From Sedimenticola thiotaurini (GTDB lineage Bacteria > Pseudomonadota > Gammaproteobacteria > Chromatiales > Chromatiaceae): a stretch of 64,000 bases of DNA. Of the stretch, positions 14,683 through 36,624 are shown one piece after another. A model generated the notes under the pieces. The model was not told where the DNA came from, did not search any database, and was given only the letters and a program-made list of their open reading frames with translations. The position numbers and the translations under genes were made by a program. Each line of letters starts with the position of its first letter. Position 1 is the stretch's first letter. The stretch spans positions 1 to 64,000 of the forward strand of contig VMRY01000009.1 in assembly GCA_007713595.1 (NCBI GenBank). Direction: 5' to 3'.

Positions 14683-15324
14683 TCAGGCGTTAACACCTTT
14701 GCGACCCATAACAGCACCACTATAGCTACGGCTGAACACAAAGGTAAAAGCATGCATCAGGCTACTGAACGGAAAATAGATCAACAGCAGTTCAGCCAGA
14801 AACAGGTGCAGCAGACGCAACGGTTCGAATGCCTGCGCCAGTGCCAGACACCCGGTCAGCATCACCAGAAATACCAGACCAGTACCGATGTAATCATCGG
14901 CGTTTGAGAGCAGCCGCGTTACCGGGTGCAACAAACGGTGCAGCCAAAGCAGGAGCAAACCGATAAAGGCAATTTCGGCGCTGATGATAAATGCCCAATA
15001 AGGCAGCGCCGGCCAGGAAAATCCAGTGATCCGTTCAGCGATGAAGTCCACATGAGGCCGTGCAAAAAACAACAGTGCGAACAATCCAATATGAAACAGA
15101 TACCCTGCAACAAAGGTCAGTCTGCCGCGTGTTGCAACATCCCGCCGTGGTATAAAACGACTAAACAGGTTGCGCAGGGCGCCAGTTGACCCACCGGAAC
15201 GGGGCACGGCCAGATCCGGCTTCAACCCGGCACGCAGGATGGAAATCAACCGAAACAGCACACCAATACAGAACACAACCAGGGAGAAATACCAGAACGG
15301 CCCGTCAATCAATTCACCAATCAT
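14683..15324 (-). CDS. NarI/DsrM/HdrE-like membrane cytochrome b
   Basis: A 213-aa membrane protein with five hydrophobic segments and several His residues suitable as heme b ligands (for example GYLFHIG, LLWLHRLLH, LLHLFLAE and SSLMHAF). It resembles the NarI/DsrM/HdrE family that exchanges electrons with the quinone pool. It pairs with the HdrD-like protein 14 bp downstream, as DsrM pairs with DsrK. The start ATG overlaps the fdhC stop (TGATG), so the two are translationally coupled. Its place beside a second cytochrome b subunit (FdhC) is unusual. Confidence 0.78.
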   Translation of the reverse strand: MIGELIDGPFWYFSLVVFCIGVLFRLISILRAGLKPDLAVPRSGGSTGALRNLFSRFIPRRDVATRGRLTFVAGYLFHIGLFALLFFARPHVDFIAERITGFSWPALPYWAFIISAEIAFIGLLLLWLHRLLHPVTRLLSNADDYIGTGLVFLVMLTGCLALAQAFEPLRLLHLFLAELLLIYFPFSSLMHAFTFVFSRSYSGAVMGRKGVNA

Positions 15325-16418
15325 CAGCCTGTCTCCTGCGCACTGGTGGCTGCATGCTGTTGGGTATCCCCATCCCCACGCAACCGTGATACCTCGACAT
15401 CAGTAATCACCTTACCCTCCTGCTCACAGAGAGTGGCCCATTCAGCATGATGTTCCCGTGCCCAGTTCAGGTCACAATAACCGGTGGTCATACCATCCAG
15501 AGCCCCCTCCATACCGACCGATCCGATATAAATATGGCCCATGATCACCAGAATCATCAGCAGTGTGGTAAGCGCGTGGGAGACATGGGACAGTTCCATG
15601 GTTATCCGCGCCTGCCCGAAAACCGGAAACACCAGTATCAGACCGGAACCCACGATCACAGCACCCACCAGCACCAGCAACCAGAACATGCTTTTCTCGC
15701 CCATATTGAAAAAGTTCGAGGGCACATGCCCCTTGCCGATGATACCGCCACCTTTCAGCAGCCAAGTGAGATCACCTTTCTGGTAGATATTACGCCGGAC
15801 AAAGCGGATAAACACCAGCAACAGGGCTACGGCAAAAACCGGCCCGAACAGGTTGTGTCCCTCCTTACTGGCGGAGGCGAGCAACGAAAAAACCTCGGAG
15901 CCGATCCAGGGTAGTAGCAGCGATCGGCCAAACAGCAGAATCAGTCCGGTCAGTGCGAGAAACAGGAAAACCGAGGCAATGAACCAGTGAATCATCCGTT
16001 CATAAAGGGTATAGCGGAACAGTTTTTTATTGCTGATGCCTGCCTTGACCCTGATCTTGCCACGTACCAGAAAGAACAGGATCAGCAACAGCAGCATGCC
16101 GGCCAGCAGATAGCCACTGTAGGGAATCAGCTGTTTCATGCGGAAATTGCGCCATGTCTCACCATAGGGATTGATCAGAGTTCCGCTCTCCACTCCAGCT
16201 ATCTGCGATCTTCCTGAAGTCACACCATCACGTTGCCGTACTTCACGCCACAGATCAGTGCTGGGATTGGGCACCTGTATCGCAGGAGCGTTGCCCGCGG
16301 TTTCCGCCATGGCATGGGGAGCCATCAGCAGCAGGAAAGCCAGCACCAGAGTCAGCATGAGAACCGCAGAGAAACCTGCCGTCTCAACTCCCGCTGATGA
16401 AAATAATGCCCGTCTCAT
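15324..16418 (-). CDS. fdhC: FdhC: formate dehydrogenase cytochrome b556 (gamma) subunit
   Basis: A 364-aa protein. The start at 16418 is chosen because AGGAGAG precedes it; a longer frame upstream lacks a site. There is an N-terminal signal-like helix (ending HAMA), a periplasmic stretch, one single transmembrane helix, and then the four-helix cytochrome b domain that starts FRYTLYERMIHWF. The His residues in that segment and in LSHVSHALTTLL are heme-ligand candidates. It anchors FdhAB in the membrane and reduces quinone. It sits downstream of fdhA and fdhB in the usual order. Prediction for the family is strong; the signal-bearing N-terminal extension is common in FdoI-like proteins of this type. 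Confidence 0.88.
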   Translation of the reverse strand: MRRALFSSAGVETAGFSAVLMLTLVLAFLLLMAPHAMAETAGNAPAIQVPNPSTDLWREVRQRDGVTSGRSQIAGVESGTLINPYGETWRNFRMKQLIPYSGYLLAGMLLLLILFFLVRGKIRVKAGISNKKLFRYTLYERMIHWFIASVFLFLALTGLILLFGRSLLLPWIGSEVFSLLASASKEGHNLFGPVFAVALLLVFIRFVRRNIYQKGDLTWLLKGGGIIGKGHVPSNFFNMGEKSMFWLLVLVGAVIVGSGLILVFPVFGQARITMELSHVSHALTTLLMILVIMGHIYIGSVGMEGALDGMTTGYCDLNWAREHHAEWATLCEQEGKVITDVEVSRLRGDGDTQQHAATSAQETG

Positions 16419-16547
16419 CAATCTCTCCTGATAACCCATCCTGCAGAATAAATTCCCACTGCAGGAGGTGCTTCGCCTTTGCAAGACCGGTTGCCAGCAG
16501 AAAGCTGGCAACCGGTCTGCCTGAACCAACATCACTATCTTCGATGG

Positions 16548-17177
16548 CTATTTTTTGACGCTGCTTTTACCCTCCATTCCGCTTGATGCACGGAATGCGG
16601 CATTCTGATAGGAGACACCCCGGTTGAGTACACTGGCACCCCGGTTGATCACCCGTTCCCGATAGATATCCGAAATCACATTGGCATCACCAGCCAGCAG
16701 TGCCTTGGTGGAACACATTTCCGCACAGAGCGGTAGCTTGCCTTCTGCAAGCCGATTGGAACCGTACTTCCTGCGCTCATCGACGCTGTGATCCTCTTCC
16801 GGCCCACCAGCGCAGAAGGTACATTTGTCCATCTTGCCACGGGAGCCAAACGCCCCTTCCTGGGGAAACTGCGGTGCGCCGAATGGACAGGCGTAAAAAC
16901 AGTAACCGCAACCGATACAGATATCCTTATCATGCAGTACGACACCATCAATCGTATCGTAGATACAGTCGACCGGGCAGACAGCGATACAGGGGGCATC
17001 AGAGCAGTGCATGCAGGCCACCGAAAGTGAACGCTCTCCAGGCTCACCATCCTTGATGGTCACCACGCGACGGCGATTCACACCCCAGGGCACTTCATTC
17101 TCGTTTTTACAGGCTGTAACACAGGCGTTGCACTCAATGCAGCGTTCAGCGTCACAATAGAATTTCATTCGAGCCAT
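16548..17177 (-). CDS. fdhB: FdhB: formate dehydrogenase iron-sulfur (beta) subunit
   Basis: A 209-aa protein with four 4Fe-4S cysteine clusters (CIECNACVTAC, CMHCSDAPCIAVCPVDC, CIGCGYCFYACPFG and CTFCAGG...CAEMC), the pattern of FdnH/FdoH-type subunits. It passes electrons from FdhA to FdhC. The start at 17177 is supported by AGAGG ten bases upstream; a longer upstream frame overlaps fdhA and is rejected. There is no C-terminal transmembrane anchor of the FdnH type, so attachment must be through FdhA and FdhC. Confidence 0.92.
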   Translation of the reverse strand: MARMKFYCDAERCIECNACVTACKNENEVPWGVNRRRVVTIKDGEPGERSLSVACMHCSDAPCIAVCPVDCIYDTIDGVVLHDKDICIGCGYCFYACPFGAPQFPQEGAFGSRGKMDKCTFCAGGPEEDHSVDERRKYGSNRLAEGKLPLCAEMCSTKALLAGDANVISDIYRERVINRGASVLNRGVSYQNAAFRASSGMEGKSSVKK

Positions 17178-17193: not shown

Positions 17194-20091
17194 CTACGCT
17201 TTGCTGATCTTGCACAGGCTACACTTGGTTTCCTGCATCTGGGTAACCGAGTCATAACCATAGGTCATGGCCGTGTTGCAGGCCTCGCCCAGCACATAGG
17301 GATCGGCGCCTTCCGGATATTTCGAACGGAGATCCTTGCCTTCAAAGTGGCCGCCAAAGTGGAATGGCATGAAGGCGACACCCGAAGCGACACGACGGGT
17401 CACCATCGCCTTCACTTTCACTTTCGCACCTTCGGCACCCTCTACCCAGACATCATCCCCGTCTCTGATGCCGGAATTATTCGCATCACGTGGGTGGACC
17501 TCCACGAACATATCCTGTTGCAGTTCCGCCAACCAGGGATTGGAACGAGTCTCCTCGCCTCCTCCCTCATACTCCACCAATCGCCCTGATGTGAGAATAA
17601 TTGGATACTCTTGGGAGTAGTCCTTAGCCTGGATCGAGGCGTAACGGGTAGGCAATCTGAAGAACGATTTGCGATCTTCATAGGTGGGATACTTCTCCAC
17701 CAGGTCGCGGCGACTGGTGTAGAGTGGCTCACGGTGTATCGGCACCGGATCAGGGAATGTCCAGACGATGGTACGCGCCTTGGCGTTTCCGAAGGGGGCA
17801 CAGCCATGTTTGATAGCGACCCGCTGTATGCCGCCAGACAGGTCGGTCTTCCAGTTTTTGCCTTCCGCCTGTTGCTGCTCCTCCGGAGTCAGATCACCCC
17901 ACCAGCCCAGCTTCTGTAACAGCTCACCGGTAAACTCCGGATAGCCATCCTTGATCTCGGACCCCTTTGAATAGGAGCCGTTGGCCAGCAGACTCTCGCC
18001 ATTACGCTCCACGCCGAAGCGGGCGCGGAAGGTGAGGCCGCCTTCGGCCACTGACTTGCTGGTGTCGTAGAGATTGGGTGTACCCGGATGCCCCATCTCA
18101 GCCGTTCCCCAACAGGGCCAGGGAAGTCCGAAAAACTCACCGTCACAGGGGCCACCCTCCGCCAGCAGGCTGTCGTAGTTGAAGGTTCCCCAGTTCTGCT
18201 GTTGCTTTTTCATACGCTCCGGGCTTTGCCCGGTATAGCCGATGGTCCACATGCCGCTATTGAACTCACGGGTGATATCCTCCACCAGCGGCTCTTCACC
18301 GTTGACCTTGATGTTTTTAAACAACTGCTCATCAAAGCCCAGTTTCCTGGCCAGCTTGTACATGATGGTGTGATCAGGCAAGGACTCAAACATCGGTTCA
18401 ATCACCCTGTCACGCCACTGCAGTGAGCGGTTGGATGCGGTGACCGAACCATAGGTCTCAAACTGAGTCGCAGCCGGCAGCAGATAGACACCGTCCGTAC
18501 GATCATGCATGACGGCGGAGACCGTAGGATAGGGATCGATAATCACCATCAGGTCCAGTTTCTCCATGGCGTTCTTCATCTCCTTGCCACGGGTTTGACT
18601 GTTTGGGGCATGGCCACAGAACACCATCGCCTTTACATTGTCCTTCTGGGCGATGTTCGCTTTGTCCTCCAGCACGCCATCGATCCAGCGCGAAACTGGA
18701 ATCCCGGTGGCGTTCATCGGACTCACCGGTTTGTCCTTGCTCTGCTCATAGCTATCACTATCAAAGCGCCCTTTGACCCAGTCATAATCGAGCCCCCATA
18801 CCTTGGCCCAATGTTTCCAGGCACCATCCGACAGGCCGTAATAACCTGGCAGGGTATCCACTAGAACGCCTAAATCGGTGGCACCCTGGACATTATCATG
18901 TCCGCGGAAAATGTTGGCGCCGCCACCCGATACGCCGATATTGCCCAGTGCCAGCTGGAAGGCGCAGTAGGCACGGGTATTGTTATTTCCAATAGAGTGC
19001 TGGGTTCCACCCATGCACCATATGAATGTTCCGGGACGGTTATCCGCCATCGCCCTTGTGGCGGCGAGGACCAAGTGTTCCGGCACACCAGTTACACGCT
19101 CGACCTCATCGGGCGTCCACTTGGCCACCTCTTTCTTCACCTCCTCCAGTCCATACACCCGTTGGCTGATGTACTCCTTGTCCTCCCAGCCATTCTTGAA
19201 AATATGCCAGAGCATGCCCCAGATAATGGGCACATCTGTGCCAGGCCGGATCTGCAGGAAGTGATCGGCATGGGCCGCAGTGCGGGTGAAACGTGGATCA
19301 ATGACAATAATCGGCGCGTTATTCCGCTCTTTTGCTCTTAGAATGTGTTGCAGCGATACGGGATGGGCCTCTGCCGGGTTACTGCCGATCAGCAGGATCG
19401 CCTGAGAGTGATGGATATCGTTATAGGAGTTGGTCATCGCCCCGTAGCCCCAGGTGTTGGCAACACCGGCCACTGTGGTGGAGTGACAGATACGGGCCTG
19501 ATGGTCTACGTTGTTAGTGCCCCACATGGCGGCAAACTTGCGAAACAGGTAGGCCTGTTCATTGCTGTGCTTGGCGGAACCGAGCCAGTAAACCGAATCG
19601 GGTCCTGAACTTTCTCGGATCTGCAGCATCTTGTCGCCGATCTCGTTGATCGCCTCATCCCAACTAATGCGTTTCCACTTCCCATCCACCAGTTTGGTCG
19701 GATACTTCAGGCGCCGCTCACCATGTCCATGTTCCCGTACCGAAGCACCCTTGGCGCAATGTGCACCCAGATTGAAGGGGTGATCAAAGGCCGGTTCCTG
19801 CCCGGTCCAAACACCATTCTGTACCTCGGCCACAATACCGCAGCCCACTGAACAGTGTGTACAGATAGTCTTTATCTGCTGGGTAGCAGCGCTACCCGCA
19901 TTGGTGGTTTCGGCCTGCACCCGTTTGATCATACCGGGTGTATAACCACTGGCCAGTACCGCACCACCTGCCATCAGGCTGGAGTTGCGCAGAAAGGCTC
20001 GGCGGCTGATGGCGCGTCCGCCAGAAGCGACTTCCCGACTGCTGTCGCTCGGCTGAGTGGATGTTTGCTCGGATCGTTTAGTCAGTTTCAT
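17194..20091 (-). CDS. fdhA: FdhA: molybdopterin formate dehydrogenase catalytic subunit
   Basis: A 965-aa Tat-exported molybdo- or tungsto-enzyme. The twin-arginine signal is at residues 30-31 (SRRAFLRN). The N-terminal 4Fe-4S ligands are Cys77, Cys80, Cys84 and Cys112. The metal ligand is Cys202 in ARICHSTTVAG, so this is the cysteine form and no selenocysteine is needed. The bis-MGD binding and C-terminal molydopterin-dinucleotide domains follow. It oxidises formate to CO2 on the periplasmic side. It ends in a Cys-containing tail (CSLCKISKA). moaA and mobB for cofactor synthesis lie nearby, and a TorD-like chaperone is encoded upstream in the same operon. Confidence 0.95.
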   Translation of the reverse strand: MKLTKRSEQTSTQPSDSSREVASGGRAISRRAFLRNSSLMAGGAVLASGYTPGMIKRVQAETTNAGSAATQQIKTICTHCSVGCGIVAEVQNGVWTGQEPAFDHPFNLGAHCAKGASVREHGHGERRLKYPTKLVDGKWKRISWDEAINEIGDKMLQIRESSGPDSVYWLGSAKHSNEQAYLFRKFAAMWGTNNVDHQARICHSTTVAGVANTWGYGAMTNSYNDIHHSQAILLIGSNPAEAHPVSLQHILRAKERNNAPIIVIDPRFTRTAAHADHFLQIRPGTDVPIIWGMLWHIFKNGWEDKEYISQRVYGLEEVKKEVAKWTPDEVERVTGVPEHLVLAATRAMADNRPGTFIWCMGGTQHSIGNNNTRAYCAFQLALGNIGVSGGGANIFRGHDNVQGATDLGVLVDTLPGYYGLSDGAWKHWAKVWGLDYDWVKGRFDSDSYEQSKDKPVSPMNATGIPVSRWIDGVLEDKANIAQKDNVKAMVFCGHAPNSQTRGKEMKNAMEKLDLMVIIDPYPTVSAVMHDRTDGVYLLPAATQFETYGSVTASNRSLQWRDRVIEPMFESLPDHTIMYKLARKLGFDEQLFKNIKVNGEEPLVEDITREFNSGMWTIGYTGQSPERMKKQQQNWGTFNYDSLLAEGGPCDGEFFGLPWPCWGTAEMGHPGTPNLYDTSKSVAEGGLTFRARFGVERNGESLLANGSYSKGSEIKDGYPEFTGELLQKLGWWGDLTPEEQQQAEGKNWKTDLSGGIQRVAIKHGCAPFGNAKARTIVWTFPDPVPIHREPLYTSRRDLVEKYPTYEDRKSFFRLPTRYASIQAKDYSQEYPIILTSGRLVEYEGGGEETRSNPWLAELQQDMFVEVHPRDANNSGIRDGDDVWVEGAEGAKVKVKAMVTRRVASGVAFMPFHFGGHFEGKDLRSKYPEGADPYVLGEACNTAMTYGYDSVTQMQETKCSLCKISKA

Positions 20092-20122: not shown

Positions 20123-20332
20123 TCAGCTTGCTGTGGTTTTGTAGTACTGCAGGATATGTGGGGTCAGGCGATAGCCTTTCTGTGTCTTCGTCTGGCCAGA
20201 CGACTCATCATCAGATGCCATTACCGCACCGGGTGCCACCGCGGCGGCGGCCACGCCCACACCTGTAACCAGCGAGCCTTTGATGAATCTCCGTCGTTCG
20301 CTATCAAGGTGTTTTTTCTTATCGTCTTTCAT
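20123..20332 (-). CDS. Small twin-arginine peptide of formate dehydrogenase operons
   Basis: A 69-aa protein with a twin-arginine signal (ERRRFIKG) and a hydrophobic segment, then a short polar tail ending HILQYYKTTAS. It matches the small Tat-target proteins found just upstream of fdhA in many proteobacteria (formate dehydrogenase region Tat target). AGGAG precedes the ATG at 20332. It may be a small partner or assembly factor of FdhA; its function is unknown. Confidence 0.82.
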   Translation of the reverse strand: MKDDKKKHLDSERRRFIKGSLVTGVGVAAAAVAPGAVMASDDESSGQTKTQKGYRLTPHILQYYKTTAS

Positions 20333-20371
20333 TGCATCTCCTCCCGCAGCTGGCAAAAAATTAGAGGCCAT

Positions 20372-21037
20372 TCAGACCTGCATGGCCAGGTAACGCTGTT
20401 CCATCTCCATGAAGGCAATACCAAAACGGCCTACCGCACGATAAAAAACGGCGGCCCGTGCTTCACTCAGGTCAACAAAAAAACGCTTGAACCAGTCTGC
20501 CATGTGCGTGTTGAAAAAAACGCCCTGACGCGCGTGGGGCAATCCGTCTGTAATCAACAAGTGCATCACTTCACAGAGCGCCGCCACATGGTCTTCCGGC
20601 TCATGCACCTGGGGATCACGCTGAAACCCCAGCACCGCGAGGTCATCCCGCAGTCTGCTCAGAGGCCGTTCCATAAGGAATCCAGTGAGATACCAGGAAC
20701 CATAGGGCACCAGCTCACCTCTGCCGAGACCTATAAACAGAGCATGATATTCATCTTCAATGGTTTCGGGCCGACAGCTTTTCGCCGCCAGTCCGAGCAT
20801 GGACATGGCAAGAGCCATCGCATCACCCTTCCGATCAACCGCAGCAAAACCGGATACCCAGTCAAGCCGCGCCTGGTCTGGCGGTGCGCCCAGTAGTGAA
20901 GCCAGCACACTGTAAGCGCCGGCACGATACTGCTGTTCCCGGGAGAGCCCGCAGTCATCCGTTGTGATAGGGGCCGTGCTGGTTTGTAATTGTTGTTCTG
21001 CCAACTCTGTCTGCATAGCCTCAACCTGAATCGCCAT
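20372..21037 (-). CDS. TorD/DmsD-family molybdoenzyme chaperone
   Basis: A 221-aa all-helical cytoplasmic protein of the TorD family. The EDEYHALFIGLGRGELVPYGSWYLTGFLMERPL region is the family hallmark (E-Y/F-x-x-L-F-x-G, then P-Y-x-S-x-Y). It should bind the twin-arginine leader of FdhA and hold the enzyme for cofactor insertion. The GAGGA site supports the ATG at 21037. That ATG overlaps the stop of the 32-aa ORF upstream (TAATG), so the two are translationally coupled. Confidence 0.85.
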   Translation of the reverse strand: MAIQVEAMQTELAEQQLQTSTAPITTDDCGLSREQQYRAGAYSVLASLLGAPPDQARLDWVSGFAAVDRKGDAMALAMSMLGLAAKSCRPETIEDEYHALFIGLGRGELVPYGSWYLTGFLMERPLSRLRDDLAVLGFQRDPQVHEPEDHVAALCEVMHLLITDGLPHARQGVFFNTHMADWFKRFFVDLSEARAAVFYRAVGRFGIAFMEMEQRYLAMQV

Positions 21038-21135
21038 TACACCGTCCTCGTATTAGCTATGAGCAATGCGCGGGCCAACCAGCCCGGGAGAAAAATAACC
21101 ATAAAGGAGTAATACAACCAAGCCAGTTCAGTCAT
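21037..21135 (-). CDS. 32-aa single-helix membrane peptide, coupled on both sides
   Basis: A 32-codon open frame fills the whole gap between the 4Fe-4S protein and the TorD-like gene. Its ATG overlaps the upstream stop (ATGA), and its TAA overlaps the downstream start (TAATG). The product begins MTELAWLYYSFMVIFLPGW and has one strongly hydrophobic helix and a basic, polar C-terminus. The perfect fit at both ends argues for real translation. I do not recognise a family; a small membrane partner of formate dehydrogenase, or a coupling peptide for the chaperone, would fit. Confidence 0.6.
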   Translation of the reverse strand: MTELAWLYYSFMVIFLPGWLARALLIANTRTV

Positions 21136-22751
21136 TGGAACGTTTCGCCCTTAACTCCCTGGGCCATTGCATCGGGGTCCTGCACAATATCCACCACCCG
21201 GCAATCCTCACACAGGGTCAATCGATGGCGCGCCTTGCCGTCCTGGAACATCCAGTGGCCTTCCAGTTTTTTCAGCATGTTCTCGATCACTGAGCGGGTG
21301 GCAAAGGGTTTGCCGCAGGCAGTGCAGCAGAAGGGCGGCTCTTCATGTAACAGACGCACCTTGTTGCGCTCCTCCCGATTGAATAGCAACCTCGGGGTAA
21401 TCCAGATAGCGTCTTCCGGGCAGGTGCGAGTACAGATCCCGCACTGCAGACAATTGGCCTCAATAAACCGCAACTGTGGTGCATCCTGTCCCGACATGAG
21501 TGCCTTACCGGGACAGGCACTGACACAGGCGAGGCAGAGCGTGCAGGCTTTCTCATCCACCTGGGCCGTACCAAAGGGTGCGCCGACGGTCAGATCGGCC
21601 ATCGGTCGTGCCCTTACTGACTGCTCGAACAGATGATCAATGGCCATGTAGGCAACCTGCCGCTTGCCACCGTTGGCAGAGAAATTGGCCGGCGTCAGCG
21701 TCAATCGCCCGGCTCCAATACCCTGCAAGGCAGCCTCGTTCACCAGCTGAACCGCCTCCTGAGAAAATCCGAGGGCTGTCAACAGCTCTCCAGCGGTAGT
21801 GACTTGCTGTTCAAGCGCCTCGACCACCCGGGCCGCCATACCACCACGATCCAGCAGCAGTACCGATCCAGCACCATAGGCAAGCGCCGTCAGCCAGACC
21901 TCCAGCCCGACACTGGCCAGCTCCTCGACCTGGAACGGTATCAGATTCGGTTCCAGAGATGGCGGGACGCCATCCACCTCCGCACAAATCACCAGTTGAG
22001 GATCCAGACCACCAGCCTGTCGATAGGTTTTAAGCAGTAGCCGGATCTGCTCCAGAGTATCCCTAGGCTGTGGATAGCTGTAGCGGATAGCACCGCTGGG
22101 ACAGACCGTAGCACAGGCACCACCACCCTGGCAGCGATAAGCATCCACGGTAACCTTTTCCACTAGTGATGTGATTGCCTCTGCCGGACAGGCATCGATA
22201 CAGCGAGTGCAGGCGATCTTTCCGGAGCGGCCATGGGCACAGATCGAGGGGTCGTAACTGAAATAACGCGGCTTGTCGAAAGTACCCACAAGTCCCTTGA
22301 GCTGCTCGACGGCGCGGTTGAGACTCGGCTCATCTGTGGCACTCACGAGATAACCCGGGGGTTTCATCGGCATGGCGAGCTGCGGCTCAGCACCCAGATC
22401 GAGGATCAGATCCGCCCTCAGGGATTCGGCATTTGATTTACCCGGTTCTCCCAACTGCAGAAGAAAGGCCCCCAGATACCCACTGATGCTCAGGCTCCGA
22501 CCGGCCTGAGAAATCACCGGCACACCCGGCAACTCTTCACCCTCAATCAGCAGCACCTGCGCCTGCAAGGGCGTATCCAGCCGGGTGGCAAACTCCAGCG
22601 CTTCAGGACCGCCAATGACCAACACCCGTCCCCGTGACTGAAATTCAACCAGGTCAGTGGTCTCTACCACCACACTGCCGAGTGCGGCCAAGGCCGCTTC
22701 GCGGGCACGGCTGTTTCTTACCCGGATTGCATCGGTTATCTGTTCGTTCAT
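21132..22751 (-). CDS. Multi-cluster 4Fe-4S ferredoxin-like protein of the fdh operon
   Basis: A 539-aa soluble iron-sulfur protein. Residues 1-165 have no cysteine cluster. Two 4Fe-4S sites lie near 170-220 (CTRCIDACP and CQGGGACATVCP), two more near 405-450 (CTLCLACVSACP and CLQCGICTRTCP), and a C-terminal CCTACGKPF…CEDC site looks zinc-binding. Proteins of this type recur next to DUF3305/DUF3306 and TorD-like genes in proteobacterial formate dehydrogenase operons; the role is probably electron transfer or cluster delivery during maturation. It overlaps both neighbours by ATGA junctions. Confidence 0.75.
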   Translation of the reverse strand: MNEQITDAIRVRNSRAREAALAALGSVVVETTDLVEFQSRGRVLVIGGPEALEFATRLDTPLQAQVLLIEGEELPGVPVISQAGRSLSISGYLGAFLLQLGEPGKSNAESLRADLILDLGAEPQLAMPMKPPGYLVSATDEPSLNRAVEQLKGLVGTFDKPRYFSYDPSICAHGRSGKIACTRCIDACPAEAITSLVEKVTVDAYRCQGGGACATVCPSGAIRYSYPQPRDTLEQIRLLLKTYRQAGGLDPQLVICAEVDGVPPSLEPNLIPFQVEELASVGLEVWLTALAYGAGSVLLLDRGGMAARVVEALEQQVTTAGELLTALGFSQEAVQLVNEAALQGIGAGRLTLTPANFSANGGKRQVAYMAIDHLFEQSVRARPMADLTVGAPFGTAQVDEKACTLCLACVSACPGKALMSGQDAPQLRFIEANCLQCGICTRTCPEDAIWITPRLLFNREERNKVRLLHEEPPFCCTACGKPFATRSVIENMLKKLEGHWMFQDGKARHRLTLCEDCRVVDIVQDPDAMAQGVKGETFQ

Positions 22752-23326
22752 GATACTGCTCCAGAGTCACCAACTGAATTGGATTCTCTATTGGCAACCA
22801 AATCTTCCGGGCCACTTCCGGAAGGTGACCGGTCTGCATCGGCTACAGCAGGTTCCACCGCAACTGTATGTTCCGACTCCCCGCTCTCATGCTGACTTGT
22901 TTGCGGCACCAGCATGGCTTCCAGTTTCGCCTCCGCCATGGCCAGTTGATGACGCATGTCAGCGGTAACAATGTCCCCCAACCCGGCAAAGTTGGTGTAA
23001 TCGCCATCATAATCATCCAGGCCATCACAGACATTGAACGCGGCGCTGTGAAACAGCTTCCGCAGCGCCTGCCGGCGCAGTGACTCACTTACCTTTTCCG
23101 ACAGAAACCCGCTGTAATCCGAGTGTTCATCCAGTGATTCGATTGGTGGCATGTCGCTGTCACAGAGCGGCTCTGCAACAATCTCATTATCATCGTTTGC
23201 CGCTATTTCATGCGGGCTATCCGATGATTCAGTGGGTAATGCCGCCTCCTGCTTCAGACGGGACCAGCGGGAGATGAAACTGTCCGAGCCACCTGCATCC
23301 CGATCCATTTTTATATGGCTTGTCAT
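22748..23326 (-). CDS. DUF3306 family protein
   Basis: A 192-aa acidic protein. The FISRWSRLK N-terminal motif, the central LRRQALRKLFHSAAFNVCDGLDDYDGDYTNF region and the disordered acidic tail are typical of DUF3306. The start at 23326 has a strong GGAGGAGAG site; the longer upstream frame overlaps DUF3305 and has no site. DUF3305 and DUF3306 genes occur as a pair in formate dehydrogenase operons. The function is unknown, probably enzyme maturation in the cytoplasm. Confidence 0.82.
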   Translation of the reverse strand: MTSHIKMDRDAGGSDSFISRWSRLKQEAALPTESSDSPHEIAANDDNEIVAEPLCDSDMPPIESLDEHSDYSGFLSEKVSESLRRQALRKLFHSAAFNVCDGLDDYDGDYTNFAGLGDIVTADMRHQLAMAEAKLEAMLVPQTSQHESGESEHTVAVEPAVADADRSPSGSGPEDLVANRESNSVGDSGAVS

Positions 23327-23850
23327 GCTCTCTCTCCTCCATCGGCCGCCTTTTTTCGCCAATCTTTCAACCGGCGCTTTTTCTTCTGTTCCGGCACATA
23401 GTGGTTTAGCACGAACAACTCGCACCAACGGTAAAGCTCAGGCGGCATAGCGACCGCATAGACTATTTCATCGCCTTCCTGATAGGCATTGGCCGCATCA
23501 AAACTGAGACTGACCAGAAAGGGTATGGGACTGCCATCTCCCTTATCATGGGCAATCACAAAACAGCTTGGGGAGGGTGAGCACAGATTCTGGTAATAAC
23601 TTTCACACTCATCAGCATATAACTGCAGTCGGAAACCACTGTTCAGATATTGCTTTGTCTCCTCCTGCTCATGGATCAGGGAGACTTGGCGTTTGGGGAT
23701 TGCGCCATCCCATAATTGAGCGGTCACGCCGACTGCTTCCCAACTGGTATCCAACCAGGGGTTATTCGAGGGCGCAGACTGCATAATCACCGAGATTAAG
23801 AATTCAGCAGGTACCTTCGCATCTAAATCCTCAACAGGCTCTTGAAACAT
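23323..23850 (-). CDS. DUF3305 family protein, first gene of the fdh operon
   Basis: A 175-aa protein with the DUF3305 features: an FLISVIMQ…NPW…SWEAVGV N-terminal part, a central YYQNLCSPSPSCFVI segment and a basic C-terminus with VLNHYVPEQKKKRRL. The start at 23850 has an AGAGGTGG site. It is 29 bp below the transcription start expected from the sigma-54 promoter at 23890-23904, which fits a first gene. Its stop overlaps the DUF3306 start (ATGA). The molecular function is unknown. Confidence 0.82.
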   Translation of the reverse strand: MFQEPVEDLDAKVPAEFLISVIMQSAPSNNPWLDTSWEAVGVTAQLWDGAIPKRQVSLIHEQEETKQYLNSGFRLQLYADECESYYQNLCSPSPSCFVIAHDKGDGSPIPFLVSLSFDAANAYQEGDEIVYAVAMPPELYRWCELFVLNHYVPEQKKKRRLKDWRKKAADGGERA

Positions 23851-23889
23851 GACCGCCCACCTCTTATTGCACGATGTGTCATATATGCA

Positions 23890-23904
23890 AGGCAAAGACC
23901 GTAC
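23890..23904 (-). promoter_or_regulatory. Sigma-54 promoter of the fdh operon
   Basis: On the minus strand the sequence reads TGGTACGGTCTTTGC: GG and GC separated by exactly ten bases, with the ACG and TTGC blocks of the -24/-12 consensus. Transcription would begin about 12 bases after the GC, near 23879, leaving a leader of about 29 bases before DUF3305. Confidence 0.72.
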
Positions 23905-23985
23905 CAGCACAGTTCAATGGCAACCATGCACAAGTTATCGAGGACTAACTCTGATTCCTCATTAAAGAGGGATACTGAAAATTGC

Positions 23986-23996
23986 GGCAAAATGTC
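23986..23996. promoter_or_regulatory. Candidate enhancer site 1 (GGCA-AAA-TGTC)
   Basis: An 11-bp imperfect palindrome GRCA-N3-TGTC, about 110 bp upstream of the fdh start and 140 bp upstream of the moaA start, the normal range for binding of a sigma-54 activator. Confidence 0.5.
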
Positions 23997-24062
23997 ACAG
24001 TCAGCCGGATCATCTGGGACAAATAGAACCATGCGGTGAGGATCAATTCAGCTAAATGCCGC

Positions 24063-24073
24063 GACAATTTGTC
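24063..24073. promoter_or_regulatory. Candidate enhancer site 2 (GACA-ATT-TGTC)
   Basis: A perfect half-site palindrome GACA/TGTC with a three-base spacer, the same geometry as the copy at 23986. It lies about 65 bp upstream of the predicted moaA start. Confidence 0.5.
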
Positions 24074-24108
24074 TAATCAGGAGAGACTAAACAATAACCC
24101 CAGTAAAT

Positions 24109-24123
24109 AGGTATGGTATTTGC
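24109..24123 (+). promoter_or_regulatory. Sigma-54 promoter of moaA
   Basis: AGGTATGGTATTTGC has GG and GC exactly ten bases apart and an intact TTGC. It shares the AGGTATG-N4-TTGCGT skeleton with the promoter at 30708-30722. The start would lie near 24135, 26 bases before the moaA ATG. Confidence 0.62.
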
Positions 24124-24160
24124 GTGCTGCGCACTCTAAACTCATTTAAAAGGAGCGCGT

Positions 24161-25186
24161 ATGCACGAAACCCAGACAGACAGTGCCAGCCATCCAGCAA
24201 CACCCCTGGTAGACCGATATGGTCGGCAGATCAAATACCTCCGGATCTCGGTAACAGACCGCTGCGATCTGCGCTGTGTCTACTGTATGTCTGAAGAGAT
24301 GCAGTTTGTGCCACGCTCTCAGTTACTAACGCTGGAAGAGTTGCAACGTATCGGACAGACATTTGTCGAGCTAGGGGTAAACAAAATCCGAATAACGGGC
24401 GGTGAACCGCTGACCCGGCGCAATATTATTCAGTTGTTTGATTCATTGGGACAACTGGATGGCCTGAACGATTTCACCCTGACCACCAATGGGACGCTTC
24501 TGCCGCAATACGCCGCAGCACTCAAGAGAGCCGGTGTCACCCGCATTAACATCAGCCTGGATACGTTAAAACCGGACCGGTTCCATGAAATTACCCGGGT
24601 AGGCGAATTAAGAAGAACGCTGGATGGCATTGAAGCCGCACGCACAGTCGGTTTTAAGCGCATCAAGATCAACTCAGTTATTCTGAAAAACCGCAACCAC
24701 GATGAGGTCAACGACCTGGTTCAGTTTACTCTCGATCGGGGTATGGATATCAGTTTTATTGAAGAGATGCCGCTCGGTATCATCAGTGAACATAATCGGG
24801 CAGATGCCTACTATTCGAGCGATCAAATCCTGCAGGATATTGAAAAACAGCACAGCCTGATCCCAACCACCGAGACCACGGGAGGCCCTTCTCGCTATTA
24901 TCGGATTGATGGGACAGATACTCGGATTGGATTCATCTCACCTCACAGCCACAACTTCTGCGATAGCTGCAATCGGGTTCGCCTGACGGCTGAGGGGCGA
25001 CTCCTACTTTGCCTTGGACAGGAGCATTCAGTAGATCTGCGCCGCATTCTGCGGGCGTACCCCCTGGATAACAGACCACTGCGCGAAGCCATCATCCAGT
25101 CAATGGATATAAAACCAAAAGGCCACGATTTCGATCTCACATCACAACCGGTTCTATTCAGGCACATGAATGCCACAGGCGGTTAA
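24161..25186 (+). CDS. moaA: MoaA: GTP 3',8-cyclase (molybdenum cofactor step 1)
   Basis: A 341-aa radical SAM enzyme. The N-terminal CxxxCxxC site is CDLRCVYC, a GGEPL SAM-binding motif follows, and the C-terminal second cluster site is NFCDSCNRVRLTAEGRLLLC. With MoaC it makes cyclic pyranopterin from GTP. AAAGGAG lies six bases before the ATG. The C-terminus differs from the usual terminal GlyGly-R form, ending NATGG. It is divergent from the formate dehydrogenase operon and shares its regulatory region, which suggests a dedicated cofactor supply for that enzyme. Confidence 0.93.
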   Translation: MHETQTDSASHPATPLVDRYGRQIKYLRISVTDRCDLRCVYCMSEEMQFVPRSQLLTLEELQRIGQTFVELGVNKIRITGGEPLTRRNIIQLFDSLGQLDGLNDFTLTTNGTLLPQYAAALKRAGVTRINISLDTLKPDRFHEITRVGELRRTLDGIEAARTVGFKRIKINSVILKNRNHDEVNDLVQFTLDRGMDISFIEEMPLGIISEHNRADAYYSSDQILQDIEKQHSLIPTTETTGGPSRYYRIDGTDTRIGFISPHSHNFCDSCNRVRLTAEGRLLLCLGQEHSVDLRRILRAYPLDNRPLREAIIQSMDIKPKGHDFDLTSQPVLFRHMNATGG

Positions 25187-30421: not shown

Positions 30422-30576
30422 TGCATACTCCAGATTGGTCCAGCGCACCTTCCCTGGTGTCTCAGTCATCCAGACTTGCGCCGGTTGCTTGTTATCTGTG
30501 GTCTATTAAATGTCAGGCAGATGGCAAAAGACTTTCGCAAGAGGGGCAGAGCAGTGGCAGATTCGGGCAAAATTGT

Positions 30577-30587
30577 GGCAATTTGTC
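30577..30587. promoter_or_regulatory. Candidate enhancer site 3 (GGCA-ATT-TGTC)
   Basis: The same GRCA-N3-TGTC palindrome as at 23986 and 24063, about 150 bp upstream of the predicted start of the HTH-PBP gene. An adjoining looser copy (GGCA-AAAT-TGTG) lies at 30566-30577. Confidence 0.48.
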
Positions 30588-30707
30588 CATCTCAGCCGCT
30601 GCTTTTGGTACAAATCAGACCACATCAGTAATTTTAATTACACGTAAGTGAACCTCGGATCGCTGTCACAGTAAGGATGGATGATTTAGAGTCATACCCG
30701 ATATGGC

Positions 30708-30722
30708 AGGTATGAATATTGC
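30708..30722 (+). promoter_or_regulatory. Sigma-54 promoter of the HTH-PBP regulator
   Basis: AGGTATGAATATTGC has GG and GC exactly ten bases apart and differs from the moaA promoter only in the N4 spacer region. Transcription would start near 30734. This decides the protein start: a TTG at 30719 lies inside the promoter, so translation must begin at the ATG at 30767. Confidence 0.62.
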
Positions 30723-30766: not shown

Positions 30767-31681
30767 ATGGCAGCAGTGATGTCACACCCTAGTGATATCT
30801 TCATGAGCGTCAAGCAGGTTGCTGAATACCTGCATCTGAACGAGAAGAAAATCTATGCACTGGTCAATGAAGGTGGCATACCGGCCACCAAAGTGACCGG
30901 GAAATGGATGTTTCCGCGCGAACTGGTCGACCGTTGGATGCTGGACTCAACACATGGGGGCTTGCTGACTGATCGACTGGTCATCTCGGGCGGTGAAGAT
31001 CCGTTGCTCTATCATCTGATCCAGGATTTCGCCCGCCATGCAGGTGCCCATGCACTCATCAGCTACACCCCCACAGGTACTCGACTTGGTCTCGAACTAC
31101 TCCAGGCCAACCGCATTGATGCCTGTGGTATACACTGGGGTCCGGATAGCGAGAGTCATCTTCGTCACCCCGCTCTGTTGAGCCAATATTCGCAACATCA
31201 TCAATGGGTATTGATTCGGGCTTTTCGCCGTGAACAGGGACTGATGATTCATGCTGAACTGGCCGCAAAAACCAGAGAGATCACTTCACTTTTTAATAGC
31301 CGTTATCGCTGGGCCATACGCCAGAGCGGATCAGGTAGCCAGCGTTTCCTGCTTGAGCTTCTGAGTCATTACGGCATCAGCAAAGATGAATTGAATAACC
31401 AGGTGAATGCCTTATCTGAACGTGAAGCCGCTGCTGCCATTGTCATGAAAAAGAGCGATGTGGCACCTGGTGCTCGCGCTACCGCCAAGGAGTATGGATT
31501 GGAGTTTATCCCATTCGGCTGGGAATCATTTGATATTGCACTGCCAAGAAACATCTGGTTCAGGCGTCTGTTCCAGGATCTGATTTCACGCCTTAAATCA
31601 CAGCCCTGCCAGGCCATGTCTGAACGACTGACCGGCTATAACCTGGAAGGTGCGGGAGATCTGGTCTGGGGGGATGATTAA
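30767..31681 (+). CDS. HTH regulator with periplasmic-binding-like sensor domain
   Basis: A 304-aa protein. The N-terminal 60 residues form a MerR/excisionase-type winged HTH (SVKQVAEYLHLNEKKIYALVNE…). The rest is a substrate-binding-like domain related to the PBP domains that follow HTHs in ModE-type and molybdate-linked proteins. It probably binds a small ligand, such as an oxyanion or a pterin, in the cytoplasm and tunes DNA binding. GAAGGGAAG precedes the ATG at 30767. Its promoter matches those of the formate dehydrogenase operon, moaA and mobB, so I infer a role in molybdenum or formate control. The ligand cannot be read from sequence. Confidence 0.75.
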   Translation: MAAVMSHPSDIFMSVKQVAEYLHLNEKKIYALVNEGGIPATKVTGKWMFPRELVDRWMLDSTHGGLLTDRLVISGGEDPLLYHLIQDFARHAGAHALISYTPTGTRLGLELLQANRIDACGIHWGPDSESHLRHPALLSQYSQHHQWVLIRAFRREQGLMIHAELAAKTREITSLFNSRYRWAIRQSGSGSQRFLLELLSHYGISKDELNNQVNALSEREAAAAIVMKKSDVAPGARATAKEYGLEFIPFGWESFDIALPRNIWFRRLFQDLISRLKSQPCQAMSERLTGYNLEGAGDLVWGDD

Positions 31682-32066: not shown

Positions 32067-34193
32067 TCATAAAAACGCTTCCAATGATGTCTCATCTTCC
32101 AAACTCTGCTGCCGGTGCATGGAATGCAGCTGCTCTTCTATAGTCTCTTCATCACTTGCCATCACCGGTTCAGTCAGCAGCCAGACGGTAAAGCTGGAAC
32201 CTTTTCCCACCACAGACTCAACGGTTATGTTCCCACCATAACGCCGGATCAAACCATAGCTGACAGAGAGACCCAGCCCAGTACCTTCTCCCTGCTGCTT
32301 GGTGCTGTAAAAGGGATTAAAAATACGCCCCATCTGATCATCATCCATTCCGGCGCCGTTGTCCTGCACCTGTATCTGGATGCCTTTATCGCTCCAGTTT
32401 CGGCTGCTGATTTTGATCACCCCCACACTGCCTTTGAGGGAATGGATCGCATTTACTACCAGATTAACCAGCACCTGCTGTAGCTCCTGCTCATTGAGCT
32501 CGACCTGACGATCTGCCTCTAATGCGAGGCTAATCTCAAACTCTACCTTCTTGCGTAAATGACGCACCAGAGCGAGGGTATGCTCAATGACTTCATTTAC
32601 ATCTATATGGGAAAGGTAGCCGGCATACTCATCTGGTCTGGAGTACTGCAACAGATTGTTGACGATATCTCTAATCCGGTAAATCTGCTCAACAACCAGT
32701 TGAATTTCATTTTGAACCGGTTGCAAGGCTGCACCTAGTTCATCTCTGATCACATCCAGGTTACCCAACATTACAGCAGTCGGATTATTGATCTCATGAG
32801 CAACTCCCGCCGTCAACTCACCCAGTGCAGCCAGCTTTTCAGCAACAACCAGCTGCTGGCGGGTTTCACGTAACGCACGAATCGTGCGCTGCAAATCCTG
32901 ATTTTTACTCTGTAACTCAGCAGTACGCTCTTTTACCTTATCTTCCAGTTGATCAGCCCATATCTGGATTTGTTGATTTCGCTCTGCCAACAGATCCAAC
33001 ATGGCATCAAATTCACGCGCCAACTCACCAATTTCATCACGCGACAAAACAGGCCCAATGCGCTTTGCCTTACCTGCGCGGGTCGCCCTGACGACTCGAC
33101 TCATCGTCTCCAGCGGTTTGAATATTGATTTGGCACCCTGTACAGCAAGCAGAGAAGAGAGTCCCATAAGAACCAGAAATAACAGCACCAGTATGGCAAG
33201 GGCCTGCCAAAGTTGATTACGAAAAGGCTTTTCCAGAAAACCGGCGTATAACATACCGACCCGGTTACCGTAGACGTCGACAATAGGTTCATAGGCAGAG
33301 AGATACCAGTCATTCACCACAAAGGCACGATCAATCCAGGTCTCTCCACGATCCAGCACATTGGTACGCACCTCGTTTGATACCCGGGTACCCAGTGCCC
33401 GTTCACCAGGACGCAACGGCACGTTAGTGGTAATACGCACATCATCAATAAACACCGTCACCGTGCCTATACTGCCTTTTGGCAAACTGCCAGGCCCATA
33501 CACCAGATCGCTGATGGTATCGACAAAACTAAAGTTATCGTTGAGTGACACGCCTCCATCGACTACAGCTACCAGCTTGCCACTCAGATCACGTACCGGA
33601 TGCACAGCGCGAATCATCATCGCCCGGTCTTCAACTGTTCTTTTGGTTGGTCGCGCCTTGGGCGTAGGTACAAGAGGTAGTTGATACTGTTTGGCAAACG
33701 CAGCTGAGAGCCGTTGCAATTCAGTCTGATTGAATATCTCAATACCTACCCTTGGCTCACCCTGAAGTGCCGCCTGCAGAGATGGAGAGAGGGCATATCC
33801 CGGGTCGGCAGTCTGCTGTGATAGTGCGTCCTGACCGCGCTGATCAAGTAGACGAAGATAGCTGAAACCAGATGTCATCTTGAGTGTGTGTAACTGTGCC
33901 GTTACCGATACAGAATCCTTCGCCTCCAGTGCGGTACGGAAGGCATAGGACTCAGTCAGACGACCAAGTTGGCCAAGATAGTCCTGGCGAATACGGCGAA
34001 AAATATCATGTGAAACTGAAAGATCTGTATTCACCTTCAGATAGAGTTGATCATAGGTGGTATTGGCGCCCCAGTAGATCGCTAGGACCAGTGCGATTGG
34101 CATAATCAGCAGAATCGGGAACAGTACCAGAGCCAGCAGTTTATAACGCAGGGACCCCTTGATTCGGTCAAGTACCTGCGGGAATAGGCTCAC
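32067..34193 (-). CDS. NtrB-type sensor histidine kinase with periplasmic Cache-like sensor
   Basis: A 708-aa kinase. Two membrane helices (about 17-42 and 338-360) flank a periplasmic sensor of about 295 residues that resembles a double Cache domain (for example AVVDGGVSLNDNF and YLSAYEPIVDVYGNRVGMLYAG). Then come HAMP, a coiled coil, HisKA (VAHEINNPTAVML, the NtrB/ZraS type) and HATPase with DNGAGMD and GTGLGLSVSYG. It lies 12 bp after the sigma-54 response regulator gene, in the same operon. It should phosphorylate that regulator on binding a periplasmic ligand. Formate or a small carboxylate is a plausible signal, but this is inference. Confidence 0.85.
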   Translation of the reverse strand: MSLFPQVLDRIKGSLRYKLLALVLFPILLIMPIALVLAIYWGANTTYDQLYLKVNTDLSVSHDIFRRIRQDYLGQLGRLTESYAFRTALEAKDSVSVTAQLHTLKMTSGFSYLRLLDQRGQDALSQQTADPGYALSPSLQAALQGEPRVGIEIFNQTELQRLSAAFAKQYQLPLVPTPKARPTKRTVEDRAMMIRAVHPVRDLSGKLVAVVDGGVSLNDNFSFVDTISDLVYGPGSLPKGSIGTVTVFIDDVRITTNVPLRPGERALGTRVSNEVRTNVLDRGETWIDRAFVVNDWYLSAYEPIVDVYGNRVGMLYAGFLEKPFRNQLWQALAILVLLFLVLMGLSSLLAVQGAKSIFKPLETMSRVVRATRAGKAKRIGPVLSRDEIGELAREFDAMLDLLAERNQQIQIWADQLEDKVKERTAELQSKNQDLQRTIRALRETRQQLVVAEKLAALGELTAGVAHEINNPTAVMLGNLDVIRDELGAALQPVQNEIQLVVEQIYRIRDIVNNLLQYSRPDEYAGYLSHIDVNEVIEHTLALVRHLRKKVEFEISLALEADRQVELNEQELQQVLVNLVVNAIHSLKGSVGVIKISSRNWSDKGIQIQVQDNGAGMDDDQMGRIFNPFYSTKQQGEGTGLGLSVSYGLIRRYGGNITVESVVGKGSSFTVWLLTEPVMASDEETIEEQLHSMHRQQSLEDETSLEAFL

Positions 34194-35622: not shown

Positions 35623-35733
35623 TTTAGATTGCGATGTACTTGTGCATCTCCGCCTTACGTGAAAATAGTCGTCCATTCGGCATCCACAACTGATTGAGAC
35701 CAACAACTTTCATCCTGTGTTCACTCAGTATGG

Positions 35734-35744
35734 GACATTTTGAC
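35734..35744. promoter_or_regulatory. Candidate enhancer site 4 (GACA-TTT-TGAC)
   Basis: A GRCA-N3-TGTC-like site with one mismatch in the right half (TGAC). It is extended to GGGACA-TTT-TGACCC. It lies about 225 bp upstream of the predicted mobB start, directly before the second direct repeat. Confidence 0.4.
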
Positions 35745-35746
35745 CC

Positions 35747-35762: not shown

Positions 35763-35939
35763 GGTGAGACAGTTTGGCGTTAAGGAGGTGAAAAGTATCG
35801 ACCCAAAAGCAGTTAATGGATGACAAAACTGACCATTTCTTGCATCCAGCTCTGACAAACAGCCCTTTTTAGTGATTTTATTCTCATTTGCAAGAGGATA
35901 TCGAAGGCAAAAATCGATCCACTTTTTACATCATTTGAT

Positions 35940-35954
35940 TGGCACCCTAATTGC
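35940..35954 (+). promoter_or_regulatory. Sigma-54 promoter of mobB
   Basis: TGGCACCCTAATTGC, preceded by T and followed by T, is almost the full -24/-12 consensus (TGGCAC, ten bases from GG to GC, TTGCT). The start would be near 35966, about 80 bases before the mobB ATG. Confidence 0.78.
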
Positions 35955-36045: not shown

Positions 36046-36624
36046 ATGATCGCTTTCCCGCTACCACTTATCGGATTCAGTGCTTTCAGTGGCACAGGGA
36101 AAACCACCTTATTAACCCGGTTATTGCCGTTACTGAAGCAACAGGGCTTTCGTGTTGGTGCCATTAAACACGCCCACCACAGGTTTGAGATCGACCATCC
36201 ACACAAGGACAGCTATCGGCTTCGCAAATCGGGGGCTGACCAGATGCTGGTAGCCTCGCGCAACTGTATTGCCATGATCACGGAACGGGAAGATCAACAA
36301 GCAGAACCCGAACTGGCTGATCTCCTGAAAGCCCTCGACAGTAGCACCCTGGACCTGGTCCTTGTTGAGGGTTTTAAACAAGAACATTTTCCCAAGATAG
36401 AGTTGCATAGACCCTCACTGGGCAAAAAACTGCTCTACCCGGATGATCCAAATATCATTGCCATTGCCACGGACGACCGACTCTCCACTACACCCTGCCA
36501 CATTCCAGTACTGGATCTTAATAATCCTTCAGAGATTATTGCGTTCCTGATCAGTCACTTCTTCCAACCAGATAAACAACCGGTGAGTGCCTATCCACTG
36601 CAAGCGCAACAGCGCGTTCAATAG
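36046..36624 (+). CDS. mobB: MobB: molybdopterin-guanine dinucleotide biosynthesis GTPase
   Basis: A 192-aa P-loop protein. Walker A is GFSAFSGTGKTT near the N-terminus, followed by GAIKHAHHRFEIDHPHKDSYRLRKSGA, the MobB signature, and VEGFKQEHFPKIEL. It assists MobA in making the bis-MGD cofactor that FdhA needs. GGAGG seven bases before the ATG supports the start. Unlike most genomes it is not next to mobA or moeA here; instead it follows a sigma-54 promoter in front of the divergent two-component genes. Confidence 0.9.
   Translation: MIAFPLPLIGFSAFSGTGKTTLLTRLLPLLKQQGFRVGAIKHAHHRFEIDHPHKDSYRLRKSGADQMLVASRNCIAMITEREDQQAEPELADLLKALDSSTLDLVLVEGFKQEHFPKIELHRPSLGKKLLYPDDPNIIAIATDDRLSTTPCHIPVLDLNNPSEIIAFLISHFFQPDKQPVSAYPLQAQQRVQ

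Follow-up and report, generated by a model that had tools for sequence, protein, structure and literature searches.

A candidate sigma-54 switch shared by the formate dehydrogenase operon and moaA of Sedimenticola thiotaurini

Introduction

The window analysed here, the whole stretch of 64,000 nucleotides from Sedimenticola thiotaurini, contains a 310-base region (positions 23851 to 24160) from which the first gene of a formate dehydrogenase (fdh) operon and the molybdenum cofactor gene moaA are read in opposite directions. This arrangement raises the question of whether both sides are turned on by one switch and, if so, which protein works it. A preliminary description of the region had proposed divergent sigma-54 promoters and a single activator that switches formate dehydrogenase and moaA together.

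RpoN dependence of an fdh cluster is known from Vibrio parahaemolyticus. According to the available text of PMC9817140, an rpoN mutant showed decreased expression of VP1510-VP1515 (fdh) by log2 3.2-4.8, of VP1501 by 1.45 and of VP1508 by 1.84, and RpoN sites were predicted at VP1501, VP1508 and VP1510; purified RpoN gave no shift of the VP1510 promoter and the effect was called indirect by its authors. In our opinion, RpoN without core polymerase makes for a weak binding test. VP1501 is TupA in the accessible part of PMC5517513, and that of PMC10469919 gives VP1502/VP1503 as an NtrC-type regulator and kinase, which a STRING analysis ties to the ABC genes VP1498/VP1499. While sigma-54 switches of this sort are already known, the assignment of activator, motif and gene set was not found described: in a literature search limited to papers available without subscription, no publication was found that assigns the activator or the motif, describes the gene set of the regulator or joins moaA to it.

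Materials and methods

The -24/-12 elements were scored with a position weight matrix (PWM) of approximate weights. The cut-offs of 9.5 for -24/-12 sites and 7.5 for enhancer sites were chosen after the scores were known and were the same for targets and controls; at the cut-off used, the chance rate of a -24/-12 site is about 1.6% of 60-base single-strand stretches. A promoter-enhancer pair was defined as a -24/-12 site of at least 9.5 with an enhancer site of at least 7.5 placed 60-260 bases upstream. The family loci (n=41) comprised 40 fetched stretches and the window, and one genome added later (G131) was kept outside the 41. As contigs end within several of these stretches, they are incomplete; the regulator was matched in 26 of the 41. 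The enhancer motif GGGACA-N3-TGTCCC was learned by a palindrome finder from 27 regions between moaA and DUF3305 in other genera, with the own genus of the window excluded. The likelihood of this motif is inflated by kinship, and therefore it was tested on other regions.

Results and discussion

Gene organization on both sides of the intergenic region

To the left of the intergenic region, eight genes on the minus strand form a probable operon which starts with a DUF3305 gene, and to the right moaA is located on the plus strand:

23323..23850 (-), DUF3305 protein, opening the fdh operon
22748..23428 (-), DUF3306 protein (open frame, probably with an internal true start)
21132..22751 (-), 4Fe-4S ferredoxin-type protein
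20372..21037 (-), TorD/NarJ-type chaperone (Pfam Nitrate_red_del)
20123..20371 (-), formate dehydrogenase region TAT target protein (TIGR02811)
17194..20091 (-), formate dehydrogenase alpha subunit, FdhA (from family matches below curated cut-offs and context)
16548..17177 (-), formate dehydrogenase iron-sulfur subunit, FdhB (named from sequence)
15324..16535 (-), formate dehydrogenase cytochrome b subunit, FdhC (named from sequence)
24161..25186 (+), moaA (the genome has a second MoaA-type gene elsewhere)

DUF3305 was found in 42 of 147 genomes searched in the order, all 42 belonging to one family. In the usual neighbourhood, as seen in stretches of sufficient length, tupABC (named from sequence; one TupA was checked and scored below the cut-off of its model) and mobB are divergent from a response regulator and a kinase, followed by a regulator with HTH_17 and PBP_like domains (HTH/PBP) and then by moaA facing DUF3305.

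Two divergent -24/-12 elements

Each side of the intergenic region carries a predicted sigma-54 element:

23892..23906 (-), TGGTACGGTCTTTGC, -24/-12 element of the DUF3305-DUF3306-FeS-TorD-FdhABC operon, PWM score 14.7
24109..24123 (+), AGGTATGGTATTTGC, -24/-12 element of moaA, PWM score 10.2

GG-N10-GC is present in both elements, and both fit a TGGCAC-N5-TTGC-like pattern. They face away from each other on opposite strands and lie where the preliminary description had placed them. The earlier distance of 25-30 bases upstream of the genes fits the predicted start sites of transcription, about 12 bases beyond the element, but not the elements themselves, in which the C of the -12 part lies 42 bases from the start codon of DUF3305 (ATG at 23850) and 38 from that of moaA (24161). 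In the alignment of six own-genus genomes, 12/15 and 11/15 columns of the two elements are invariant, and one rpoN match is present in the genome of the window (G000:C79:168182-168658, E 2.1e-70). The motifs taken singly are as frequent as expected by chance in the window: GG-N10-GC was observed 639 times (619 expected), TGGYAYRNNNNTTGC with up to two mismatches 111 times (111 expected) and GRCA-N3-TGTC six times (4.8 expected). Single motifs stay at the level of shuffled sequence; the evidence lies in their position, conservation and combination.

Two other kinds of control were considered for the region and dropped. A simple consensus scan found no sigma-70-like site in the intergenic region, and the closest match to the FNR-type sequence TTGATNNNNATCAA carries 3 mismatches.

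A symmetric pair of candidate enhancer sites

Between the two promoters, three palindromes were located:

23984..23998, GCGGCAAAATGTCAC, candidate enhancer UAS1, its centre at distances of 99 and 132 bases from the -12 of the left and the right promoter, 15/15 columns invariant in the genus
24016..24030, GGGACAAATAGAACC, candidate enhancer UAS2, its centre at distances of 131 and 100 bases from the same two -12 parts, 11/15 columns invariant
24061..24075, GCGACAATTTGTCTA, weaker third palindrome, common to the nearest sister (L140) and variant in L153

The centres of UAS1 and UAS2 are 32 bases apart and the pair is symmetric between both promoters. The right half of UAS2 is poor. Outside the elements, 38 of the 217 remaining intergenic columns are invariant in the six own-genus genomes. 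Both copies of GRCA-N3-TGTC that the preliminary description had reported exist (23986-23996 and 24063-24073), but only the first is conserved; the second, which lies within the third palindrome, was discarded as second enhancer with 1/11 invariant columns, and 24016-24030 takes its place. In many relatives, too, two sites occur 32-34 bases apart, the second of them often being weak, and tandem sites with this spacing are used by NtrC-type proteins.

The motif was applied unchanged to 31 intergenic regions between tupA or mobB and the regulator, including those of Thiothrix, Shewanella, Aeromonas and Vibrionaceae (two of the loci, L017 and L129, are apparently the same contig), and in each of them five or fewer of 200 dinucleotide shuffles equalled the score of the best site or exceeded it. 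Upstream of the HTH/PBP gene of the own genus, five of six regions have an enhancer site reached by at most 7/200 shuffles, while L142 fails (67/200). Genome-wide, GRCAAWWTGTC was not enriched (9 forward and 2 reverse matches vs 7 and 10 for a backward control), and GGGACAWWWTGTCCC with up to three mismatches gave 184 matches per strand vs 328 for its control. As the motif does not exceed its control genome-wide, it is meaningful only together with a promoter. Among 15 loci taken from the GGGACAWWWTGTCCC list (L163-L177, L163 being the mobB site), only L175 besides mobB has a -24/-12 site of at least 10 within reach. Exact copies of TGGYAYRNNNNTTGCW occur at eight places in the genome, none of them among the four window promoters, and one (L203) has an enhancer-like site nearby (10.4).

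Conservation of the promoters and the status of the moaA element

The comparison of upstream regions in relatives, which had been suggested as a check, showed that a -24/-12 site of at least 9.5 within 300 bases upstream is conserved before DUF3305 in 39/41, before moaA in 32/35 and before tupA in 17/19 loci (window included), while the same scan of control upstream regions gave 3/41 for DUF3306, 1/39 for fer, 1/23 for the kinase, 5/26 for the response regulator, 1/19 for tupB, 2/23 for tupC and 0/3 for fdhA; due to the kinship among the genomes, these counts are not independent. The additional genome G131 scored 13.1 for DUF3305 and 9.9 for moaA. Two further sites are features of the own genus: a -24/-12 site precedes the HTH/PBP gene in 6/6 own-genus loci and 0/29 others, and a mobB site adjoining the regulator is present in 6/6 and 1/20, respectively.

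The three misses at moaA are L142 (GG of the -24 part changed to AG), L148 (-24 and -12 changed) and L159 (no site). The bases flanking the damaged elements of L142 and L148 stay conserved, as would be expected if moaA of the window were transcribed mainly from another promoter, its -24/-12 element were a weakening relic and only the fdh side were truly switched. Such a reading, which we regard as unlikely, is also favoured by the lower score of the moaA element compared with the fdh element (10.2 vs 14.7) and by the second MoaA-type gene of the genome, which has no -24/-12 site upstream (best score 5.8). It is opposed by the retention of the element in most family loci, by the result of the sigma-70 consensus scan and by the location of UAS2 at 100 bases from the -12 of moaA.

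The candidate activator

The window also encodes a two-component system and the HTH/PBP regulator:

34206..35597 (-), proposed activator, NtrC-family response regulator (Response_reg, Sigma54_activat with GAFTGA, HTH_8)
32067..34193 (-), partner sensor histidine kinase (sCache_3, HAMP, HisKA, HATPase_c)
30767..31681 (+), HTH_17 and PBP_like regulator, of a putative metal- or cofactor-sensing type judging by its domains

The gene of the response regulator lies 10 kb from the promoter pair. In its product, receiver, AAA+ domain with GAFTGA and Fis-type HTH are all present and the phospho-acceptor pocket is intact (DD, D, T, K in VDDEPG, DLIIADIRLP, MTAYAD and MKPF). The protein scores below the cut-offs of the models for NtrC proper (NCBIfam ntrC, 395.3 bits vs 558.6) and for FhlA (NCBIfam FhlA, 273.5 bits vs 830). 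Matches of at least 58% identity, a line drawn after the list was known, were present in 39/42 DUF3305-positive vs 3/105 DUF3305-negative genomes of the order, those in G048 and G142 being partial; counting six further negatives at 53-54% identity, the activator is present in 9/105 DUF3305-negative genomes.

The DUF3305-positive genomes without an activator match are G017, G050 and G105. Although rpoN is present in G017 and G050, their sites score 3.6 and 4.1 at DUF3305 and 3.2 and 8.4 at tupA, all below the cut-off of 9.5 (the value of 8.4, that of the tupA site in L127, is close to it), and these two genomes are the sole misses for both genes. G105, a genome 92% complete, kept both sites. 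Altogether, the genomic association suggests that the response regulator at 34206-35597 is most likely the activator of the promoter pair.

It is also conceivable that the HTH/PBP protein, acting as a one-component sensor for a metal or cofactor, binds the palindromes and that another NtrC-type protein activates the promoters, which would still be sigma-54 dependent. The HTH/PBP protein is matched in 35/41 family stretches, and its gene itself belongs to the proposed regulon. Its PBP domain is similar to a portion of a molybdopterin biosynthesis protein, with a score below the cut-off. Moreover, G017 and G050 have no HTH/PBP gene either, and these two genomes alone cannot tell which regulator the sites need. 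Twelve genomes, however, have the regulator and no HTH/PBP match (1e-20), and all of them carry promoter-enhancer pairs; as these represent eleven distinct genomes (G103 and G151 are apparently the same record) and as a tandem spacing of 32-34 bases is an NtrC-type habit, the HTH/PBP protein is quite improbable as enhancer binder.

Promoter-enhancer pairs and the proposed gene set

Two further predicted promoters of the window combine a -24/-12 element with a candidate enhancer:

30708..30722 (+), AGGTATGAATATTGC, -24/-12 element of the HTH_17/PBP_like gene
30575..30589, GTGGCAATTTGTCCA, candidate enhancer of the HTH_17/PBP_like gene, 140 bases upstream of the -12
36046..36624 (+), mobB (named from sequence; matches near the activator in relatives)
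35940..35954 (+), TGGCACCCTAATTGC, -24/-12 element upstream of mobB
35732..35746, GGGACATTTTGACCC, candidate enhancer of mobB, sole place in the genome with at most one mismatch to GGGACAWWWTGTCCC

The mobB enhancer has a weaker partner 34 bases on (35766-35780, score 4.6). The scan of the window returned four pairs, located before DUF3305, moaA, the HTH/PBP gene (30722) and mobB (35954), and that of L023-L090 around other NtrC-type genes five pairs in 1,037,327 bases. From 39 family loci (without L129) 90 pairs were obtained, 81 of which precede tupA (16), moaA (22), DUF3305 (34), the HTH/PBP gene (4) or mobB (5), and the remaining nine other or unassigned genes. Twelve loci (L011-L022) gave 22 pairs, with nine before tupA, three before fer, two before moaA, one each before torD and DUF3305, and six before other or unassigned genes. 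These distributions suggest a gene set wider than the one proposed in the preliminary description, with mobB and the HTH/PBP regulator in the window and tupABC in relatives.

The members of this set are arranged differently between genomes. In L124, the HTH/PBP gene follows moaA and an FdhD-like gene (FdhD matches below cut-off); the own genus is rewired in that this gene lies kilobases from moaA and has its own -24/-12 site. The tupABC genes of the window's genome are no longer neighbours of the regulator but are located on another contig (G000:C110:47947-48663, L185), where they adjoin the gene of a 4Fe-4S protein. An enhancer-like site (11.9) lies about 190 bases upstream of tupA; no -24/-12 site was found within 300 bases, the nearest -24/-12-like sequence being about 850 bases upstream. 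In Agrobacterium and Rhizobium (L021 and L022) a promoter-enhancer pair follows the kinase, and the gene after it in L021 encodes a transporter with relatives among the oxalate/formate antiporters and the lactate transporters, with scores below the cut-offs of the models. Within the group of 53-54% identity (L211-L216), a pair precedes moaA in 6/6 loci, and L211 and L214 contain another pair about 600-800 bases before a NarK-like gene, which was matched below the cut-offs in the copy of L020 (L214 and L020 are apparently the same contig).

At this Thiocystis locus (L020/L214; L020 about 13560-13830), the divergent partner of moaA resembles, by eye, a gene of the NADH-dehydrogenase-L type. A large open frame comes after it, and the two may form a bicarbonate uptake pair; -24/-12-like sites and an enhancer site are located at the 5′-end of this divergent partner. 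A further -24/-12-like site of the window (TGGCCCGCGCATTGCT, 21077..21062 on the minus strand, score 15.4) has its -12 about 26 bases ahead of the torD start, and no enhancer site was found within its reach in the window; in Thiothrix (L011), a promoter-enhancer pair is located at torD.

That GG-N10-GC and short palindromes are common and that ordinary sigma-70 promoters serve the region is suggested by the chance-level counts of single motifs, but the position and conservation of the sites, their pairing with enhancers and their joint loss with the activator leave this explanation next to no probability.

Proposed mechanism

From the conserved promoters and enhancer, the presence of rpoN and the co-occurrence of the activator, it appears highly probable that two sigma-54 promoters stand back to back in the 310-base region and share a single enhancer, which is worked by the response regulator at 34206-35597. 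The same observations lend support to the earlier proposal of divergent sigma-54 promoters through which one activator turns on fdh and moaA together. In the proposed mechanism, the kinase (32067-34193) would phosphorylate the response regulator, which would then bind the tandem palindromes 23984-23998 and 24016-24030, three helical turns apart. The bound protein would loop to sigma-54 RNA polymerase at either promoter, where its GAFTGA ATPase would open the promoter. Because the pair is symmetric and offers equal geometry to both promoters, joint induction of the fdh operon and moaA is probable. The same arrangement is found upstream of mobB and of the HTH/PBP gene in the window, and upstream of tupA in relatives. 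The output would be a formate dehydrogenase programme of enzyme, maturation proteins and cofactor synthesis, complemented in relatives by tungstate uptake. As to the signal, formate or a related small acid is our guess.

The comparison thus proposes an activator, together with its DNA motif and gene set, for a sigma-54 fdh system whose RpoN dependence is known from the available Vibrio account. One switch would tie together tungstate uptake (in relatives), cofactor synthesis and the enzyme, and with a single switch for the gene set, the rule of promoter plus motif would be usable to seek the regulon in other genomes.

Comparison with known systems

The proposed switch resembles glnAp2 with NtrC, where an activator of the same family binds a pair of palindromes that are separated by three turns and located about 110 and 140 bases ahead of the start. 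It differs in its DNA motif, in the use of one pair of sites for two divergent promoters and in a regulator scoring far below the NtrC cut-off. Like the proposed activator, FhlA of E. coli is a sigma-54 activator that switches formate dehydrogenase and helpers in the formate hydrogenlyase regulon; it is a one-component formate sensor, in contrast to the receiver and kinase found here, and the match to its model is below the cut-off.

The Vibrio cluster VP1510-VP1515, with VP1501 and VP1502/VP1503, shares with the present system counterpart genes by description and order as well as RpoN dependence, as far as the available text of the source goes. In L015 and L019, both from Vibrio, the regulator orthologue adjoins tupA; L013, L016 and L019 have promoter-enhancer pairs before the 4Fe-4S gene. 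Differences are that the available text of PMC9817140 names no fdh activator, that moaA is absent from its main text and that the Vibrionaceae loci (L013-L016 and L019) contain no moaA match. In Geobacter sulfurreducens, formate dehydrogenase is likewise expressed from a sigma-54 promoter, the RpoN promoter of the fdnG operon (GSU0777-0781) being backed by primer extension in the accessible text of PMC2725144; different from the present system, moaA and tungsten or tungstate terms are absent from the main text of that paper.

Lineages without the kinase

In four of the 11 genomes searched (G046 with L148, G127 with L153, G014 with L151 and G137 with L160), the kinase is missing from locus and genome at E <= 1e-60, a threshold at which a less similar replacement kinase would escape. 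The four kinase-less regulators occupy three places in the regulator tree, the positions of L151 and L160 being unsure due to long branches. The acidic pair of the receiver is altered in all four (VDHE, VDHE, VDAD and VDAQ instead of VDDE), and the regulator of L160 is additionally without the phospho-acceptor Asp. By comparison, DD is kept in 33/33 regulators with kinase and readable pocket (that of L018 is unreadable, and L129 and L017 are both counted). GAFTGA and the -24/-12 site of DUF3305 are retained in 4/4 kinase-less genomes and the first enhancer site in L148 and L153. The moaA element of L148 is lost. In L151, no enhancer site of at least 5 was found in the moaA/DUF3305 region, and the tupA/regulator region has one of 11.8.

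According to the available text of PMC12632262, about 80% of pseudo-receivers carry a non-acidic residue at the second acidic position, and those characterised are mostly orphans. The kinase-less regulators fit this pattern. The joint reading, namely that the kinase-regulator pair is an unrecognised dedicated activator of fdh and Mo/W cofactor supply from Gammaproteobacteria to Rhizobiales and that it became phosphorylation-independent in about three lineages, is in our estimate equally likely to be right or wrong. Its second part would mean that the kinase was lost and the second acidic residue changed from D to H in one clade and from D to A in two others, while regulator, GAFTGA and fdh promoter stayed. 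If true, a sigma-54 two-component activator was repeatedly converted by nature into a pseudo-receiver activator. The recurrent kinase absence together with the altered receiver pocket provides a natural test of how an NtrC-type activator functions in the absence of phosphorylation.

Several minor observations concern the regulator and its neighbours. The regulator of L139 (G059) has GAFTDA in place of GAFTGA. After the kinase gene of the window, an 82-aa protein without Pfam match is encoded (31700-31948), which was matched only in own-genus loci among the loci searched and is still encoded in the kinase-less loci L148 and L153. Finally, the kinase frame of another own-genus genome (G083:C61:13669-15747, L194) contains one in-frame TAG, perhaps another loss in progress.
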